A stretch of DNA of 64,000 nucleotides from an uncultured Gemmiger sp. Its GTDB lineage: Bacteria; Bacillota; Clostridia; Oscillospirales; Ruminococcaceae. The notes under the pieces were generated by a model. The model was not told the origin of the DNA, did no database searches, and saw nothing but the letters and a program-made list of their open reading frames with translations. A program made the translations under genes and the position numbers. The DNA lies in contig CALXHQ010000002.1 of NCBI GenBank assembly GCA_944388145.1, positions 299,950-363,949 on the forward strand, written 5' to 3'. Below are positions 52,073 through 64,000 of the stretch, in pieces; the first letter of the stretch is position 1, and each line of letters starts with the position of its first letter.

Positions 52073-52139
52073 GGGAACAGAAACAAGCAGGAGACCGCGG
52101 GCCATTGTCCCGCCCATGGGACAGAAAGAGAGGACACCC

Positions 52140-53705
52140 ATGTCTGTACCGCAAAAAATTGATCCTCAAAACTGGAAGCAGGAACTGCCGGCCTTCCGGG
52201 CCAAAACCGACGAATTTTACGCCGGTCAGGTGGACAAGGCCGCTTACAAGGGCTTTTCCGGCTTTTACGGCAGCTACGCCCAGCGGGGCGCCAAGGCCAG
52301 CATGCTGCGCCTGCGCATGACCGCCGGCCGCGTCACCAAGGCCAAGATGGCCTTTGTGGCCGATGCCATCCGGCGGCTGCACCTGGAACATCTGCACTTT
52401 ACCACCTGCCAGACCATCCAGCTGCACGATCTGCAGTCTGACCAGGTTTACGACCTGATGGAAAAGGCGCTGGATGTGGGCATTGTTACCATCGGCGGCG
52501 GCGGAGACTATCCCCGCAACATCACCTGCTCGCCGCTGGCCGGGGTGGAACCGGGCGAGTACTTCAACGTGCTGCCCTGGGCCGAGGCCGCCGGCGATTA
52601 CCTGATGCACTTTGTCAAGGCGGAAAAGATGCCCCGCAAGCTGAAGGTGAGCTTTTCCTCCTCGCCGTCCAACCTGCCCCACACCACCTACCGGGACCTG
52701 GGCTTTACCGCCCGCGCCGACGGCAAGTTTGACGTGTACAGTGCCGGCGGCCTGGGCAACAATCCCCGGTTTGCCGTCCGGGTGGCCGAGGCGGTGGACC
52801 CCGACCAGATCCTCTACTATATCAAGGCGATGTGGCTGACGTTCCGCGCCTACGGCAACTACGACAACCGTGCCCGCGCCCGCAGCCGCTATATGCAGGA
52901 CGCGCTGGGCGGCCCTGAACAGTACGCCGAGGCCTTCCGCGCCAAGCTGAAGGAAGTGTACGACACGGAGGACCTGACCCTGACCGGCATTGCCGAGACG
53001 CCCGTGGCCAAAACCGGCACCCCCGACCCGGCGCTGGCGGCCAACCCCCGTGTGGCGGCCCAAAAGCAGCCCGGCCTGTATGCGGTGGCCTGGCACCCCA
53101 TCGGCGGCCATGCCGATCCGGCGGTGTTCTGCGCGGTGAGCGATGCGCTCCAGGATATCCCCGAAGCGGAGCTGCGCCTGACCCCCGACGAGGGCAGCTG
53201 GATCATCAACCTGACCGCCGGCGAGGCCCGCCGCCTGCTGGACCTGACCGCCCCCAACAGTGCCGCCAGCCTGTTCGAAACTTCGGTGGCCTGCATCGGC
53301 GCCAGCGTCTGCCAGCAGGGCCTGCGGGACAGCCAGGCTCTGCTGACCGACTGTGTGGCGGCGGTGCGCGCGGCCAGCCTGCCGGACGGCGCGCTGCCCC
53401 AGATCCACATTTCCGGCTGTCCCTCCAGCTGCGGCACCCACCAGACGGGGATCATCGGCTTCCGCGGTGCCGCCAAGGTGGTGGATGGCAAGCCCAATGC
53501 AGCGTTCACCCTGTATGCAGGCGGCTGCGAGCGCCAGGGCAGCGAGAAGATGGGCCGCGAACTGGGTGTAATTTTGGTGGAGAACATCCCTGTCTTCCTG
53601 GTCCGGCTGGGCCGGACTGTGGCCGCCAGCGGCCAGACCTTCCAGGATTGGTACGCCGCCAACCCCAGCGAATTTGATAAAATTGCCGCCGAGTTTTTGG
53701 CGTAA
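52140..53705 (+). CDS. nitrite/sulfite reductase family protein (siroheme and 4Fe-4S)
   Basis: A 521-residue protein with two nitrite/sulfite reductase half-domains: a ferredoxin-like half with TTCQTIQLHDLQ and GDYPRNITCSPLAGV, and the cluster-binding Cys385/Cys391 (ACIGASVC) and Cys427/Cys431 (GCPSSCG). These four Cys bind the 4Fe-4S cluster bridged to siroheme. Length fits assimilatory ferredoxin-type enzymes. Nitrite or sulfite cannot be chosen from the motifs. GAGAGGAC lies before the ATG. No siroheme biosynthesis or transport gene is adjacent. Confidence 0.88.
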   Translation: MSVPQKIDPQNWKQELPAFRAKTDEFYAGQVDKAAYKGFSGFYGSYAQRGAKASMLRLRMTAGRVTKAKMAFVADAIRRLHLEHLHFTTCQTIQLHDLQSDQVYDLMEKALDVGIVTIGGGGDYPRNITCSPLAGVEPGEYFNVLPWAEAAGDYLMHFVKAEKMPRKLKVSFSSSPSNLPHTTYRDLGFTARADGKFDVYSAGGLGNNPRFAVRVAEAVDPDQILYYIKAMWLTFRAYGNYDNRARARSRYMQDALGGPEQYAEAFRAKLKEVYDTEDLTLTGIAETPVAKTGTPDPALAANPRVAAQKQPGLYAVAWHPIGGHADPAVFCAVSDALQDIPEAELRLTPDEGSWIINLTAGEARRLLDLTAPNSAASLFETSVACIGASVCQQGLRDSQALLTDCVAAVRAASLPDGALPQIHISGCPSSCGTHQTGIIGFRGAAKVVDGKPNAAFTLYAGGCERQGSEKMGRELGVILVENIPVFLVRLGRTVAASGQTFQDWYAANPSEFDKIAAEFLA

Positions 53706-53899: not shown

Positions 53900-54778
53900 T
53901 TACGAAAAGTTATTTTTCCGTTTCGGATCGCGGAAGCCTTCGCCGTAAACCTCGTTGGTTTCCGAGATCATCACCATGCAGTGGGGATCGATGGCGTAGG
54001 CGGCGGCCCGGATGGCGTAGACCTGCAGCCGGGTGCAGGCACACAGCAAAATCTGCCGCTCGCTGCCGGTAAAGGTACCGGTGGCCTTGACCAGCGTGGA
54101 GCCGCGGTCGCAGTGGCGGCCGATCCAGTCGGCAATGTCCTGCCCGTGCATGGTGATAATGGTCAGCATCTTGCTGGAGGCCGAGCTGGCCATGATCTTG
54201 TCGATGGTAAAGCTGGTCAGCACGGTGGTGACCAGGCCGTACAGTACCGAGTCGATGCTGCCGAATACCGGCCAGCCCAGCAGGATGATGGCAATGTCGA
54301 TCACGCCGGTGATCATCCCCACCGACAGATGGGGCCGCCGGGTGTTGATGCTGACCGTCAAAAAGTCGGTGCCGCCGCTGGAGGATCCCCGCATATAGAA
54401 CAGCGCCATGGCCGCCCCCCACAGCACACCGGTAAACAGCGCGGCCAGCAGCGGGTCGCCGGTGTAGGTGGGCAGCCGGGCAAACAGCAGATCCTGAAAC
54501 AGCGCACAGTAGACGGTGGAGATCATGCTCTTGACCAGAAAAGTCCGCCCCACAAAAAAGATGCTGCCCAATGCCAATGGGATATTGATCAGCACCGTCA
54601 CCAGGCCGATGGGCCAATGCCACAGGTGGTTGGCGATCAGCGCAATGCCGGACACGCCGCCAGGGGCAAAGTTGGCGCCGCCGGCAAAGTAACTGATGGC
54701 GGCGGCGTACAGCAGGCCGGCGGCCAGGTTGTACAGCTGATCCACAGCGATGGTTTTCCAGTTCAGCGAATGCTTCAA
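53900..54778 (-). CDS. YitT-family membrane protein with DUF2179
   Basis: A 292-residue protein with five to six N-terminal membrane segments, including GGANFAPGGVSGIALI and GSSSGGTDFLTVSINTRRPHLSVG, and a C-terminal cytoplasmic DUF2179 domain (DRGSTLVKATGTFTGSERQILLCACTRLQVY). This is the YitT plan; its transport substrate is not established. Start is TTG at 54778 (AAAGGAG ahead); no in-frame ATG lies closer to the first membrane segment. A TACAAT -10 box lies about 54857 without a clear -35. Confidence 0.88.
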   Translation of the reverse strand: MKHSLNWKTIAVDQLYNLAAGLLYAAAISYFAGGANFAPGGVSGIALIANHLWHWPIGLVTVLINIPLALGSIFFVGRTFLVKSMISTVYCALFQDLLFARLPTYTGDPLLAALFTGVLWGAAMALFYMRGSSSGGTDFLTVSINTRRPHLSVGMITGVIDIAIILLGWPVFGSIDSVLYGLVTTVLTSFTIDKIMASSASSKMLTIITMHGQDIADWIGRHCDRGSTLVKATGTFTGSERQILLCACTRLQVYAIRAAAYAIDPHCMVMISETNEVYGEGFRDPKRKNNFS

Positions 54779-54895
54779 AACGGACTCCTTTCCTGTGCGG
54801 GCGGCGGGACAGCCCCGCTGCCTGAAGGCGAACTTTGTACGTTTGTCTAATCCCATTGTATCACATTTCCGGCCACGTGGGTAGTGGCAGACGCA

Positions 54896-54940
54896 AGGCA
54901 GCCCCGCCCGCACCCAAATGGGGCGCAGACGGGGCTGCCT
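54896..54940 (-). terminator. stem-loop after the ATP synthase operon
   Basis: AGGCAGCCCCG (54896-54906) pairs with CGGGGCTGCCT (54930-54940). T-tract on the minus strand is short. It is the only hairpin after atpC and probably ends or protects the operon message. Confidence 0.6.
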
Positions 54941-54980
54941 GTATGAGCATGAAACCGTAAAAAACGGGAAACGCAGTGGT

Positions 54981-55394
54981 TTAGTGATGATGATGCTGCC
55001 GTGCAGCGGACAGGCGGGCGGTGGCGCGGGCCAAGGCCGCCTTGCTGTTGTAGTACTCGGCACGGCTGCCCTTCTGGCGCAGGCGCTCCTCGGCGCGCTC
55101 CTTGGCGCGCTCGGCGCGGGCCTCGTCGATATCCTCCGCATTTTCGGCGGCGGAAACCAGCAGGATGGCATAGTCGGACATGATCTCGGCAAAGCCCTGG
55201 GTCACCACCAGGTCGTGCCATTCGCCGTCCGCCTTGTAGCGGGCCTCGCCGGGCTCAATGGCGACCACCACCGGCTCATGGCCGGCCTGCACGCCCATGC
55301 TGCCGTCGGAGGCAGGCAAAACCAGGCTTTCCACCTGACCGGTGAAAAACTGCTTTTCCGGCGTGACGATCTCCAGCAAAAAGGTGTTTGCCAT
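54981..55394 (-). CDS. atpC: ATP synthase F1 subunit epsilon
   Basis: A 137-residue epsilon subunit. An N-terminal beta sandwich (FLLEIVTPEKQFFTGQVESLVLPASDG) and a C-terminal helical hairpin (ARAERAKERAEERLRQKGSRAEYYNSKAALARATARL). It ends in an unusual run of four His. It is the last gene of the atp operon, 3 bp after atpD. It links gamma to the c-ring and can inhibit ATP hydrolysis. Confidence 0.94.
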   Translation of the reverse strand: MANTFLLEIVTPEKQFFTGQVESLVLPASDGSMGVQAGHEPVVVAIEPGEARYKADGEWHDLVVTQGFAEIMSDYAILLVSAAENAEDIDEARAERAKERAEERLRQKGSRAEYYNSKAALARATARLSAARQHHHH

Positions 55395-55397
55395 GGC

Positions 55398-57747
<2,350 letters not shown>

Positions 57748-57760
<13 letters not shown>

Positions 57761-59787
57761 TTGGCGCTCACCTGCTTTTTGTAGCTGTCCAGCGTGGTGC
57801 GGATCTGCTCGGTGGCGGTGCCGGACAAGGCGCCGGTCTCGTCAATCTCAGAGATCAGCGCCGGCTGCTCCCGCTCCAGCAGGTCCACAAACTCGTTGGA
57901 GAAGCGGTTGACCTCCTCCACCGGCACGTCGGACAGCAGGCCATTGGTGGCGATGTACAAAATCACCGCCTGACGGCTGACTGCCATGGGGGTGCAGCGG
58001 GGCTGGCGCAGCAGGGCCATCATCCGCTTGCCGTGGTCCAGAGCCTTGCGGGTCTCGGGGTCCAGGTCGGAGCTGAACTGGGTAAAGACTTCCAGCTCGC
58101 GGTAGCGGGCCAGGTCGATACGCAGCGTGCCGGCGGTTTTCTTGATGGCACGGGTCTGGGCGGAGCCGCCCACACGGGACACCGACAGGCCCACGTTGAC
58201 AGCAGGCCGCTGGCCGGAATGGAACAGCCCGGTTTCCAGATAGATCTGGCCGTCGGTGATGGAAATGACGTTTGTGGGGATATAGGCGGAAACGTCGCCG
58301 GCCTGGGTTTCAACAATGGGCAGCGCCGTCATCGAGCCGCCGCCGTACTCCTTGGTCACGCGGCAGGCGCGCTCCAGCAGACGGCTGTGCAGATAAAAGA
58401 CGTCGCCGGGGTAGGCCTCGCGGCCGGGGCTGCGCCGCAGCAAAAGCGACAGGGTACGGTAGGCCACCGCGTGCTTGGACAGGTCGTCGTAGACGATCAG
58501 CACATCCTTGCCGTGGGCCATGAAATATTCGCCCATGGCGGCGCCCGCATAGGGGGCGATGTACTGCATGGGGGCGCCCTCGCCGGCGGTGGCGGACACG
58601 ATGATGGTGTAAGCCATGGCGCCGTACTGCTTGAAGGTCTCCCGCAGGCGGGCGACGGTGGACTCCTTCTGGCCGATGGCCACATAGATGCAGATCATGT
58701 TCTGACCCTTCTGGTTCAGGATTGCATCCACGGCGATGGCGGTCTTGCCGGTCTGGCGGTCGCCGATGATCAATTCGCGCTGGCCGCGGCCGATGGGCAC
58801 CATGGCGTCGATGGCCAGGATGCCGGTCTGCATGGGTTGGTTGACCGGTTCCCGGCTGATGACGCCGGGGGCTTCATGCTCGATGGGGTAGCGCTCGGTG
58901 GTATCGATGGGGCCCATGCCGTCGATGGGGCGGCCCAGGGCATCCACGGTGCGGCCGATCAGGGCATCGCCCACCGGCACGTCGGCGGGGCGGCCGGTGC
59001 GGCGGCAGAGGCTGCCCTCGGTCAGGCCCTCCTGGCTGCCCAGCAGGATGACGCCGGTGCGCTTGCGGCGCAAATCCAGCACAATGCCGGAGGTGCCGTT
59101 GTCAAACTCCACCAGCTCACCGTAGACGGCGCGGCGCAGGCCGCTGACATTGACAATGCCGTCGCCCACCTCGATCACGCGGCCGGTTTCAACGGCGTCC
59201 ATATCGTCGGCATTGCCGGCGATGACCGACTTCATCTGGTCGGCCAGTTTGCTGATGTCATCGGTCTCGGGGGCATCCTGCATGCCGCGGGCCAACCGGT
59301 CCAGGCGGCCCTTGACACTGCGGTCGTAGGTGACGCCGTCCACATCCAGCACAAAACCGCCCAGGATGGACGGGTCGATCTTGATCTCCAGCACGGCGTT
59401 TTTGGCGCCGCGCAGCTTGCACACCGCCTCGCGGATGGCCTTCTGGGTGGCCTCGTCGGGCTGGCGGGCGCAGGTGACCTGGCACTCCACGCCGCCCTCG
59501 GCGGCCAGGGCCAGGCGGCTGTACTCAGCCAGGATGGCGGGCAGGTCGCCCATGGCGTCCGCCTCGGCCACCAGGCCCAGAAATGCCTTCAGCGCGTCCT
59601 GACCGTCCAGTTCGGCGGCATCGGCGATCAGCTGCTTCTTTTCCGCCAGGGTGACGGCCTTGCTCGTCAGCGGGTTCCACAGGGCCTTGTCGGCCATCAG
59701 GGCATCGGCGGCGGCGCGGACGGCTTTGGCGTCGTTGCCCGCAGCCCCAAACAGGGCAGCGGCATAACGCTGGGTCGTTTCGCTCAT
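57748..59787 (-). CDS. atpH-atpA: ATP synthase delta-alpha fusion protein
   Basis: One open frame of 679 residues. Residues 1-168 are a complete delta subunit (start [14 protein letters not shown], end [20 protein letters not shown] and [13 protein letters not shown]), and residues from about 176 are a complete alpha subunit with the usual N-terminal segment ([15 protein letters not shown]), P-loop GDRQTGKT (342-349), [15 protein letters not shown] and a normal C-terminus. The linker is only about eight residues (MQDAPETD). There is no stop between the parts. An internal ATG exists (59281-59283) but no ribosome site precedes it. Normally one delta serves three alpha, so this fusion is structurally unexpected. 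A 4-bp overlap links it to atpF. Confidence 0.93.
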
Positions 59788-60272
59788 TTCGCTTCACCCA
59801 CCTTTTCCAGGAACTGCTCGGCCAGGGCACGGTCCGAGTCGGTGTCCAGCCGCTTGCCGGCCACCTCGGTGGCGGCCAGCACGGCCAGCTTGGCCACCTC
59901 GGCGCGGGCGGAACGCAGCATCTCGCTGCGCTCGGCAGCGATGCGGTGCTCGGCCTCGGCAGCGGCCTGCTTGGCGTCGGCCTCCGCCTCGGCCATGCGG
60001 TCGGCATAGGCCTGGTCGGCGCGGGTCTTTGCGCTGGCCACCAGCTGGGCGGCCTCCTCGCGGGCGCCGGCCAGCTTGTCTTCATATTCTTTCTGCATGG
60101 CCTGGGCTTTCTGGTTGTTCTCTTCGGCCTCGCTGATCTCCTTCTGGATCAGCTGCTCCCGCTGCTCCAGCACAGCGTTGACCCGGCCGAACAGGAACTT
60201 GCGGAAAAAGAAGTACAGCACCAGCAGGTTGATGATGGTAAAAATAATGGTTGAGGGCTGGAAATCCAGCAT
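59784..60272 (-). CDS. atpF: ATP synthase Fo subunit b
   Basis: A 162-residue b subunit: one N-terminal membrane helix ([18 protein letters not shown]) and a long Ala/Glu/Arg-rich helical stalk ([38 protein letters not shown]). The ATG at 60272 has AAGGAGG 8 nt upstream. It would form the b2 stalk and bind the delta part of the fusion. It is preceded by the 384-bp structured gap. Confidence 0.93.
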
Positions 60273-60281
60273 CCTGCACAC

Positions 60282-60665: not shown

Positions 60666-60884
60666 TCAGGCGGCAAAGATGATGATCAGGGCGGTGACGA
60701 AGCCGAAGATGGCGGTACCTTCGGCCATGGCGGCGCCGATCAGCAGGGTGGAGTTGATCTTGCCGGAAGCCTCCGGCTGGCGGGCAATGGCCTCGCTGGC
60801 GTGGCCGGTGGCGATGCCGATGCCGATGCCGGCGCCGATGCCGGTGAGAACTGCGATGCCTGCTGCAATGATTCCGATGCTCAT
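60666..60884 (-). CDS. atpE: ATP synthase Fo subunit c
   Basis: A 72-residue hairpin of two membrane helices joined by a polar loop ([11 protein letters not shown]). The ion-binding Glu55 lies in [11 protein letters not shown]. The Gln and Ser that bind Na+ in sodium-type rings are Ile22 and Gly56, so a proton-type ring is more likely. AGGAGG lies before the ATG at 60884. It forms the rotor ring with subunit a. Confidence 0.95.
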
Positions 60885-60948
60885 GGTAGTTTCCTCCTGA
60901 AATTTTTGGGATGAATGGGTTGCGGGTTGGCCCCTGCGGGTGGAACCG

Positions 60949-61650
60949 TCAGTCTTCTTTGATGCCCTCACCGGTGAACATGGCGGTCAGGAACACAAAG
61001 ACGACGGTCTGGATGATGCCGTCGAACAGGTCAAAGTAGATGCTGAACACGGCGGGGACGACGGCGGGAACCAGGTACTTGATGATCTCCATGATGATGT
61101 AGGCGCCCAGCACGTTGCCGAACAGTCGCATACACAGCGCCAGCGGGCGGATGATGACCTCCATCAGGTTGATGGGCACCATCACGGGGCTGGGCGAGCC
61201 GAAGCGTTTCATGCCGCCCAGCAGGCCGTTGTAGCGGAACTGCGCGCCGTAGATCAGCACCATGCTCATCACAGCCAGGGCGGCGGTGACGCTCACATCC
61301 TTGGTGGGGGAGGTCAGGCCGAACAGGCCGATGATGTTGGCAAAGCCGATGTACAGCGCCACCGTGCCCAGGTAGGGGGCAAAGGGCCGCCAGTGGGGGC
61401 CGATCGTTTCCTTGACGAAACCGTTCAGGAAACTGACGCCGGTCTCCAGCACCACCTGCACTTTGCCGGGGTTGCGGACTTTGAGATTTCGTGTTGCCAG
61501 AAGCGTTGCGATGATCCAGACCGCCATGATGATCCAGCTGACCACCACCGAGCCCGACACCGGGATGCCCCCCAGTACCGGGATGGTGAAGGCGGTCTCG
61601 TTCTGCATGGCTTCCAGCAGGGTTTCTTTGAAGCCTTCCAACTTGTTCAC
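60949..61650 (-). CDS. atpB: ATP synthase Fo subunit a
   Basis: A 233-residue membrane protein with about five hydrophobic segments and the essential Arg in [16 protein letters not shown]. The C-terminal [25 protein letters not shown] is typical. Start is uncertain: GTG at 61650 overlaps the AGAGG ribosome site, and an in-frame TTG at 61641 has better spacing. It is the first gene of the operon; no atpI gene precedes it. Confidence 0.93.
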
Positions 61651-62933: not shown

Positions 62934-64000
62934 GTGAAAACATGGCCGAGCCGGGTGCATTGGAATTACTTGCAGACCGGCTTCCTGATTGAAGATTTCT
63001 TCCCCCGCAACGGCGTGCGGTATATCGCCATGAATGACGGTATCGACACCATGCGGGACAACAACGACATTGCGCCGTTCAAGAACATCCTCAACGAGAT
63101 GTACAGCAAGGATATTTCCAAGAAGGTTCATTCCTCTTATCTGCTGAAAGCGCAGAAAGGCCAGTTTACCGGCTGCCTTGCCCCCTTTGGGTATCGGAAA
63201 GACCCGGAGGACAAAAACCATCTGCTGATTGATGAGGAAACGGCCCCCATTGTCCGGCGTCTGTTTGCGTGGGCGCTGGAAGGACACGGCCCCAACTACA
63301 TCCGGCGCAGGCTGGAAGATGAAAAAATCCCATGCCCGACCTACTGGAACCGGGTGCGGGGCTTTCGGAACGTGTCAACCAAGTGGGAAAAGAAAGACCC
63401 GGTCAACGGGCGGTATATGTGGGACTTCTCCGTGATTAAGGACATCCTGATGAACCCCGTCTACACCGGCGCTATCGCTTCCCAGAAGAAGGAATACCGC
63501 TTCAAAATCGGCACCATCGGGGAGAAGAAGCCGGAGGAATGGATTGTCGTGGAGAACCAGCATGAGCCGCTTGTTGACCGCAAGACCTTTGACATCGTGC
63601 AGCGCAAGCTGAAATCCCGGCAGCGCCCCCGCCAGACCGGGGAAATCAGCCTGTTTGCGGGGCTTATCAAGTGCGGCGAGTGCGGGAAGTCGCTGACGAT
63701 CCGCTACACCAACGACAAGCACCCGAAGCAGATTTATTCCTGTAAGACCTACAACGCCTACGGGAAACAGCACTGTACCCAGCACCGGGTTGAGTACGAC
63801 ACCCTTTACAGCCTTGTGCTGAACAAAATCCGGGAGTGCGCCAGAGCCGCCCTGATGGACGGGGAAGCCGTTGCCGGGAAGCTGACCGACACCTGCGAAG
63901 CCGAGCAGAAAGGCCAGCGGGAAGCGTTGGAGCGTTCCCTTACCAAAGACGAGGAACGGATTGACGTTCTGGAAAAGATGGTGCTGCGGCTGTATGAGGA
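62934..64000 (+). pseudogene. large serine recombinase, 5'-truncated and running off the right edge
   Basis: The frame is open from 62916 to the edge, with a possible GTG start at 62934 after AGGAAAGGGG. It matches TnpX/Tn1549-type large serine recombinases from about their residue 100: LQTGFLIEDFFPRNGVRYIAMNDGIDT, the recombinase domain (APFGYRKDPEDKNHLL, MNPVYTGAI) and the zinc ribbon (CGECGKSL, CKTY, HCTQHRVEY), then a coiled-coil part. The N-terminal catalytic domain with the active Ser is missing and the sequence before YLQTGF (KTWPSRVHWN) is scrambled relative to the family. Lower GC than neighbours points to transfer. It is probably inactive; the upstream part may have been lost at insertion or deletion. 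Confidence 0.75.

Follow-up and report, generated by a model that had tools for sequence, protein, structure and literature searches.

A delta–alpha fusion in the ATP synthase of Gemmiger and its relatives, and a possible natural route to enzymes with more than one stalk

An F-type ATP synthase operon in the window, by which we mean the whole stretch of 64,000 nucleotides analysed here, encodes the delta and alpha subunits as one polypeptide. Related fusions recur in the order to which the window belongs, some of them lacking the N-terminal domain of delta and some carrying a b-like part as well, and by analogy with an engineered enzyme we propose that delta built into alpha, in Gemmiger and its relatives, may underlie natural engines with more than one stalk. 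Genomes, loci, genera and families are coded G, L, g and f, respectively, and the genome of the window is G000.

The original prediction placed the fusion at 57748..59787, and this is borne out: the frame lies on the minus strand, begins with ATG and encodes 679 amino acids with zero internal stops, a complete delta being followed by a complete alpha. Pfam assigns OSCP/delta to residues 6–167 (108.6 bits), the alpha barrel to 200–265, the nucleotide-binding domain to 322–537 and the C-terminal domain to 544–667, and the NCBIfam alpha model TIGR00962 scores 749.6 bits, well above its cut-off (484.45). The operon runs in the order a, c, b, delta-alpha, gamma, beta, epsilon; alpha, beta, gamma, epsilon, a, b and c are all F-type by Pfam/NCBIfam and share this one operon, which identifies it as F1Fo. 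Neither the frames nor Pfam give a separate delta gene in the operon, where delta sits in the alpha frame, and a duplicated delta nearby was ruled out because the operon has no second delta. The features are as follows.

60949..61650, minus strand, subunit a (Pfam PF00119)
60666..60971, minus strand, subunit c (Pfam PF00137; motif AEGTAIF), the true start being probably inside the frame at MSIGII
59784..60281, minus strand, subunit b (Pfam PF00430), its end overlapping the ATG of the fusion by 4 bases
59798..59804, minus strand, Shine-Dalgarno (SD)-like AAGGTGG upstream of the delta-alpha start, ending 10 nt before the ATG
59497..59787, minus strand, delta N-terminal domain, residues 1–97 (Pfam OSCP), six-helix bundle kept
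59284..59496, minus strand, delta C-terminal domain, residues 98–168 (Pfam OSCP), the dock for the stalk (b)
59191..59283, minus strand, linker and alpha N-terminal helix, residues 169–199, holding Met169, Met185 and Met196
57748..59190, minus strand, alpha core, residues 200–679, with barrel, nucleotide-binding and C-terminal domains (Pfam and NCBIfam over cut-off)
56849..57760, minus strand, subunit gamma (Pfam PF00231)
55398..56852, minus strand, subunit beta (TIGR01039, 798.8 bits)
54981..55394, minus strand, subunit epsilon, both domains (Pfam PF02823 and PF00401)

An AlphaFold2 model of the fusion was modest (mean pLDDT 71.2, pTM 0.57, 36 rows, with parts of alpha below 50), and only its delta N-domain and linker regions were therefore used. 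It places six helices within residues 3–96 of the N-domain (block pLDDT 71–87), and the linker and alpha N-helix region has a block pLDDT of 55–69. The delta C-domain is common to all 22 aligned fusions; a delta C-domain HMM was built from these 22, which match it by construction.

Conservation of the fusion was analysed in 35 genomes of the genus, thirty-one of which have delta: 15 carry a full-length fusion, one (G009) a partial fusion and 15 a free delta alone. A clade-wide search for long atpH-atpA frames, proposed with the original prediction, thus recovers the fusion at full length in 15 of 35 Gemmiger genomes. The full-length frames span 681–753 amino acids from stop to stop, the 14 other proteins being 77–94% identical to that of the window, and the partial frame of 219 amino acids is ended by a contig end when already past the junction. 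Linker lengths vary by whole codons. Since the gene is full length in 15 genomes and the indels in its linker are in frame, the fusion is not a sequencing error. Among the nearest 16 named records (L093–L108), 14 bear the title Gemmiger, one Subdoligranulum and one Clostridia. A free delta is also present in 13 of the 16 fusion-bearing Gemmiger genomes, and the other three (G001, G003 and G004), drafts of 82–95% completeness, have the fusion alone.

A second F-ATPase operon (L036, G000:C10:44000-60000) lies on a different contig of the window's genome, which is 2.73 Mb in size and 98.8% complete; delta (179 amino acids) and alpha (512) are separate there. The two alphas are 58% identical and fall in different clades of the alpha tree. 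Near the ion site of subunit c, all 15 fused Gemmiger operons have the motif AEGTAIF, which we take to mark a proton-type c subunit, and the four second operons examined all have TESTGIY with GEG upstream, presumably a sodium-type c subunit.

The closest known counterpart is an engineered Bacillus PS3 enzyme, in which the delta N-domain was deleted and the C-domain fused to alpha (Ueno et al., 2025; PMC12229609; PDB 9jc1). That enzyme can carry as many as three stalks together with three a subunits, at an H+/ATP ratio of 5.8, and its authors hold that the delta N-domain, lying on the threefold axis, limits the stalks to one. The three chains of 9jc1 were the top three Foldseek matches to the window protein, which aligns with 9jc1 over residues 111–671 with two gaps, one of a single residue at the junction and one of two residues close to the C-terminus. 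Both proteins join the delta C-domain through a short linker to the alpha N-terminus, and neither operon has another delta; they differ in that the engineered fusion lacks the N-domain, whereas the window protein keeps it whole. A natural delta(deltaN)-alpha of Acidaminococcus fermentans is mentioned in the discussion of the same article, where the authors also guess that nature may have built several stalks. As described there, its delta and alpha genes are fused in the ATP synthase operon as in the window, but its N-domain is missing. The b-delta protein of Gordonia and mycobacteria (Niu et al., 2017; PMC5709465) likewise fuses delta with a stator part, which is b and not alpha in the account given there. 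By description only, the N-ATPase alpha, with its long N-terminal extension and insertion, is possibly another fusion of stator and alpha; N-ATPase has no delta, however, whereas the window has it in the alpha frame, and the window protein is not an N-ATPase alpha, scoring 597.7 bits with TIGR03324 against a cut-off of 750.5. V-ATPases, described as having three EG stalks that reach the B subunits (PMC6131620), would be a functional parallel if several stalks form, although their stator proteins differ from the F-type ones.

In the ordinary enzyme the alpha N-termini are bound by the delta N-domain (Ueno et al., 2025; PMC12229609). The state of this joint was compared in 12 Gemmiger genomes that carry both operons, with columns treated as independent, species unweighted and the bootstrap used descriptively. 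The ratio of N-domain to C-domain rate is 1.70 in fused delta (95% bootstrap interval 1.19–2.51) and 0.87 in free delta (0.67–1.14), the fused ratio being equal to or lower than the free one in 0.125% of bootstraps. In the 24 residues before the alpha barrel, one is invariant in fused alpha as opposed to 17 in free alpha, and the rate of the alpha N-helix relative to the barrel is 3.29 (2.39–4.70) in the former and 1.02 (0.39–1.98) in the latter. Both partners of the joint are therefore under looser constraint than the stalk dock and the barrel. The fused N-domain has a median dN/dS of 0.36, which is purifying selection (that of the free delta N-domain is 0.23, a figure that includes residues upstream of free delta starts), and this together with the six modelled helices shows that the domain is not dead.

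The wider series of fusions was assembled by profile searches and operon retrieval, and frames were tested with the delta C-domain HMM. Three types occur in the order of the window: full delta-alpha, delta C-domain-alpha and a triple b'-delta C-domain-alpha. Besides Gemmiger, the full type is found in 6/6 g20 genomes examined, three g36 genomes, Clostridiales bacterium CCNA10 and members of f14 and f24, and in G288 (g9) and G143 and G221 (g110), whose fusions are nested in the Gemmiger clade. The latter three loci (L068 in G143, L069 in G221 and L067 in G288) are Gemmiger-type fusions in drafts of 75–84% completeness coded to two other genera; gene transfer, binning contamination or the placing of the genus boundary are possible reasons. 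The C-domain-only type occurs in four g36 genomes, 5/6 examined g81 genomes and others in the order, as well as in uncultured Oscillospiraceae (L115 and L116, from G424 and G425) and a Bacillota record (L163). The CCNA10 fusion (L109:8001-10103:+) has a linker of 62 residues, as against 38–40 in Gemmiger, with apparently two copies of the alpha N-terminal helix. Two adjoining c-subunit genes are present in three g20 operons (L203, L207 and L208).

Triple fusions were found in 16 operons (L253–L261 and L263–L269; for example, L257:979-3222:+) and are 735–757 amino acids long from the likely start. In each, an N-terminal membrane helix opens a single frame that continues through a coil resembling b and then the delta C-domain into alpha; immediately upstream stands a separate b gene. 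The hydropathy of the N-terminal helix is 2.0–2.8 across the 16, whereas the best value in the first 200 residues of the window fusion is 1.3, so that the latter has no N-terminal b membrane helix. The Pfam b domain scored 27.4, 29.1, 32.5 and 34.0 bits (cut-off 28) in the four triple fusions examined, and it is on these scores, the membrane helix and the position that we assign the first part as b'. Such proteins unite in a single chain the b-delta-like and the delta-alpha joinings.

In the order sample of 394 genomes, at least 67 have a stop-free frame across the delta-alpha query, a figure that includes frames beginning at query position 35–36 (G783 and G513) and one cut at 521 amino acids (G560). 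The 50 loci from the order search represent 46 different genes, of which the HMM confirmed 44 and rejected 2; G774 and G577 (L229 and L230), rejected by the HMM, have an in-frame stop and so carry separate genes. Across the phylum sample, candidate stop-free frames at E ≤ 1e-48 were present in 14 of 398 genomes. No stop-free triple fusion was found in 255 genomes of the class at E ≤ 1e-40, the sole match having an in-frame stop, and a family-level PF00213 search gave only separate delta among the best-scoring matches listed. Long alpha frames in Acidobacteria (L129), Rokubacteria (L144) and Verrucomicrobia (L158) were left out of the counts because their delta is encoded in a different frame and these alpha frames give zero matches to the delta C-domain HMM.

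In several lineages the fusion is the only alpha and the only delta over cut-off, all such counts being limited by the genes that draft genomes may miss. This is the case in all six g20 genomes examined (98–100% complete), in G176 and G245 of g36 (99% and 92% complete) and in CCNA10, whose record is titled complete genome. A seventh g20 genome, G375, has two delta matches and stands outside the count of six, and further delta matches in G238 (13.9 bits) and G245 (15.2 bits) fall under the cut-off of 22.3. Nothing delta-like exceeds the cut-off in G317 (99% complete), G424 and G425 except a C-domain fused to the only alpha, the delta profile being covered over 102–171 or 104–172. The triple fusion is the only alpha at E ≤ 1e-60 in 13/16 genomes (62–100% complete); a further alpha is present in G772, as a C-domain-alpha operon, and in G766 and G513, as a free alpha.

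An alpha tree was built by a quick method, unrooted and with SH-aLRT support only, from 250 usable frames that were deduplicated to 188 and then reduced to 148 rows by thinning 48 distant separate rows to 8. The four gene states require 12 changes on this tree, compared with 66.6 in shuffles. Well-supported branches require at least five changes for the full fusions, and the triple fusions form one clade. Judged from this phylogeny, delta-alpha fusions have several origins in the order. At three points of the tree (g36, f24 and L115/L116) forms with the C-domain only adjoin full fusions or are nested among them, L115/L116 standing next to CCNA10 and G727 with weak support (82). The g36 fusions have a separate-gene relative outside the group, and the other C-domain-only forms (a 15-row group, L216/L217 and L163) have no adjoining full fusion. 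At least in g36 and f24, the pattern fits fusion first and loss of the N-domain later, with the direction of change unproven because the tree is unrooted. In four unfused relatives (L221, L222, L110 and L112) the delta stop and the alpha start overlap or lie 7–8 bases apart, so a small indel could fuse the genes.

Potential internal starts were sought around the junction. Met169 (59281-59283) had been called the only Met near it, which is wrong, since Met185 and Met196 come after; the accompanying statement that no ribosome site precedes Met169 is correct, and SD-like motifs are likewise absent at Met185 and Met196 in the window. A TTG at residue 165 of the window fusion has AAGG about 14 nt upstream. 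Met169 is kept in 6/15 aligned Gemmiger fusions and Met185 in 13/15, the other two having an ATG three codons earlier. An SD-like motif precedes the residue-185 ATG in one of the 15 (L053, ending 3 bases ahead). In a scan of the linkers of full and C-domain-only fusions, such a motif stood before a start codon in 14/58 rows, and 13/16 triple fusions have an SD and start codon at some point from residue 150 up to the barrel, in most cases within the delta C-domain; these counts stand without a chance expectation. In four of the 14 rows the codon is ATG (L087, L109, L202 and L249). Among SD-bearing rows are L202 (from G317) and L115 and L116, from genomes that also support an uncut chain. Five of the 58 rows (L232, L238, L239, L240 and L250) contain no ATG, GTG or TTG in the scanned stretch, and none of the six g20 fusions has an ATG past the delta C-domain, three having a GTG without SD. 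Among the triple fusions, L255 and L263 have an SD-preceded ATG in the linker itself and three of the 16 lack any such pair.

We consider it probable that the gene yields a single uncut delta-alpha chain and that three such chains enter each F1, the peptide bond standing in for the joint that the delta N-domain and the alpha N-helix normally form non-covalently. Every alpha would bring its own delta C-domain dock for a b2 stalk, and the joint, replaced by the peptide bond, would be free to decay: it would be relaxed but present in Gemmiger, with the N-domain lost altogether in related lineages. With three fused chains, one N-domain would be expected on the axis and the others displaced. As part of this whole explanation, the window enzyme is likely to be intermediate in kind, with an ordinary ATP synthase on one side and the delta C-domain-alpha design on the other. 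That three delta copies per F1 would alter the stator, as the original prediction had it, we judge to be right; its expectation that they would crowd the top of F1 holds for the N-domain, since Ueno et al. (2025; PMC12229609) place that domain on the threefold axis. Related lineages are without an N-domain and keep only the stalk-binding C-domain. By the argument of Ueno et al., retention of the N-domain under purifying selection counts against several stalks, and we rather doubt that Gemmiger assembles more than one while the N-domain is present.

The chain is probably uncut, because genomes without the N-domain could not hold the stalk after a cut and because the joint is relaxed in Gemmiger. 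Cleavage in the linker after translation, which would give ordinary alpha, excess delta and a normal single-stalk enzyme, nevertheless has points in its favour: no other stretch compared varies as much as the linker and N-helix (1/24 invariant), the model has low confidence there and the delta N-domain still folds in it, and a released full delta could still bind F1 after a cut at this variable site. Such an enzyme would, however, need the joint between N-domain and N-helix, both of which are relaxed; the fused C-domain of G317, G424 and G425, if cut off, would leave no domain to hold F1, and these genomes could not keep a stalk; and residues 169–199 contain no invariant residue in the alignment of 15. 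We therefore regard cleavage as unlikely. Initiation at Met185 would supply free alpha in addition to the fusion, and delta would then be carried by a single one of the three alphas. The conservation of an ATG at 185 or three codons earlier in 15/15 makes weak SD-less initiation possible in Gemmiger, and the SD-preceded starts in linkers of all lineages (ATG in 4/58, any start codon in 14/58, with no chance rate) make free alpha by this route possible in some of them. The motif before the 185 ATG in one Gemmiger fusion alone, the loss of half of the N-helix that a start at 185 would entail, the five linkers without any start codon and the absence of an ATG from the six g20 fusions, though these are the only alpha there, speak against it, and as the explanation of the fusion we hold internal initiation to be quite improbable. 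Where the N-domain is absent, at least one alpha per F1 would in any case still need the covalent dock. Internal initiation at the junction had been named in advance as grounds for rejecting the fusion; no ribosome site is common to the Gemmiger junctions, yet initiation without an SD is possible.

A mixed enzyme, with one fused chain and two free alphas from the second operon, had also been suggested. A free alpha does exist in that operon and could dilute the fused chain, and most fusion-bearing Gemmiger genomes have a free delta. The rest of the suggestion fares badly, since the two alphas share only 58% identity and belong to separate clades, the c subunits are of different kinds, three Gemmiger drafts (82–95% complete) carry the fusion alone, and genomes outside Gemmiger hold the fusion as sole alpha, for which reason mixing is not needed; we consider it very unlikely. 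Finally, an assembly or sequencing error, the usual worry with a single frame, has nothing seen in its favour and is refuted by the gene being full length in 15 separate genomes of the genus, including the single-contig G026 and G034. The hidden stop between the two parts that could have undone the prediction is excluded by the alignment of the 15 full-length proteins, and the chance of an error is negligible.

Returning to the uncut chain, we put forward tentatively, and at slightly less than even weight for the proposal as a whole, that F-type ATP synthases with more than one stalk are a common natural feature of the order of the window, the full delta-alpha fusion being the first step and loss of the N-domain the next, with the triple lineage and the two Gemmiger engines as further parts of the picture. 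The proton cost of ATP is set partly by the number of a subunits. If the proposal is true, the threefold axis would become clear once the N-domain is lost, leaving room for as many as three stalks with three a subunits. Gemmiger would then run two engines that differ in H+/ATP ratio, the canonical one having a c ring of sodium type and the fused one being of proton type. Each alpha of a triple fusion would have its own membrane anchor, making three stalks obligatory barring free alpha from internal initiation or cutting, and of the natural cases for three stalks this architecture may be the strongest. The series from full fusion through N-domain loss to triple fusion provides numerous examples from nature, named Gemmiger strains such as the cultured G. 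gallinarum DSM 109015 (L096) among them, and makes the guess of Ueno et al. directly testable; it also suggests an evolutionary route in which the genes fuse first and the joint that fusion makes redundant then decays.

In the open-access PMC literature, searched by titles and abstract starts, we found no report of a natural full-length delta-alpha fusion or its spread in the order, nor of a b-delta-alpha triple fusion. The delta C-domain-alpha kind has been in print since 2025; within the literature searched, the full-length form, the order-wide spread and the triple fusion are apparently new.

A strict-pattern search for the c motif gave nothing in the 16 triple fusions and six other operons, including those of G317, G267 and G358. 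The a subunits of these three genomes (L218–L220) score 42–49 bits against that of the window, compared with 194–336 for other operons of the same family, and on the low a score and the c motif not being found, the three appear to have a divergent Fo. Around the operon of the window, a YitT/DUF2179 membrane protein is encoded at 53900-55000, just 3' of epsilon on the same strand, and a nitrite/sulphite reductase-like protein at 52131-53705 on the plus strand, past the operon's end. About 1.3 kb past the a gene lies a serine recombinase (62934-63998; Pfam Recombinase and zinc ribbon), which may belong to an integrated element extending off the window.
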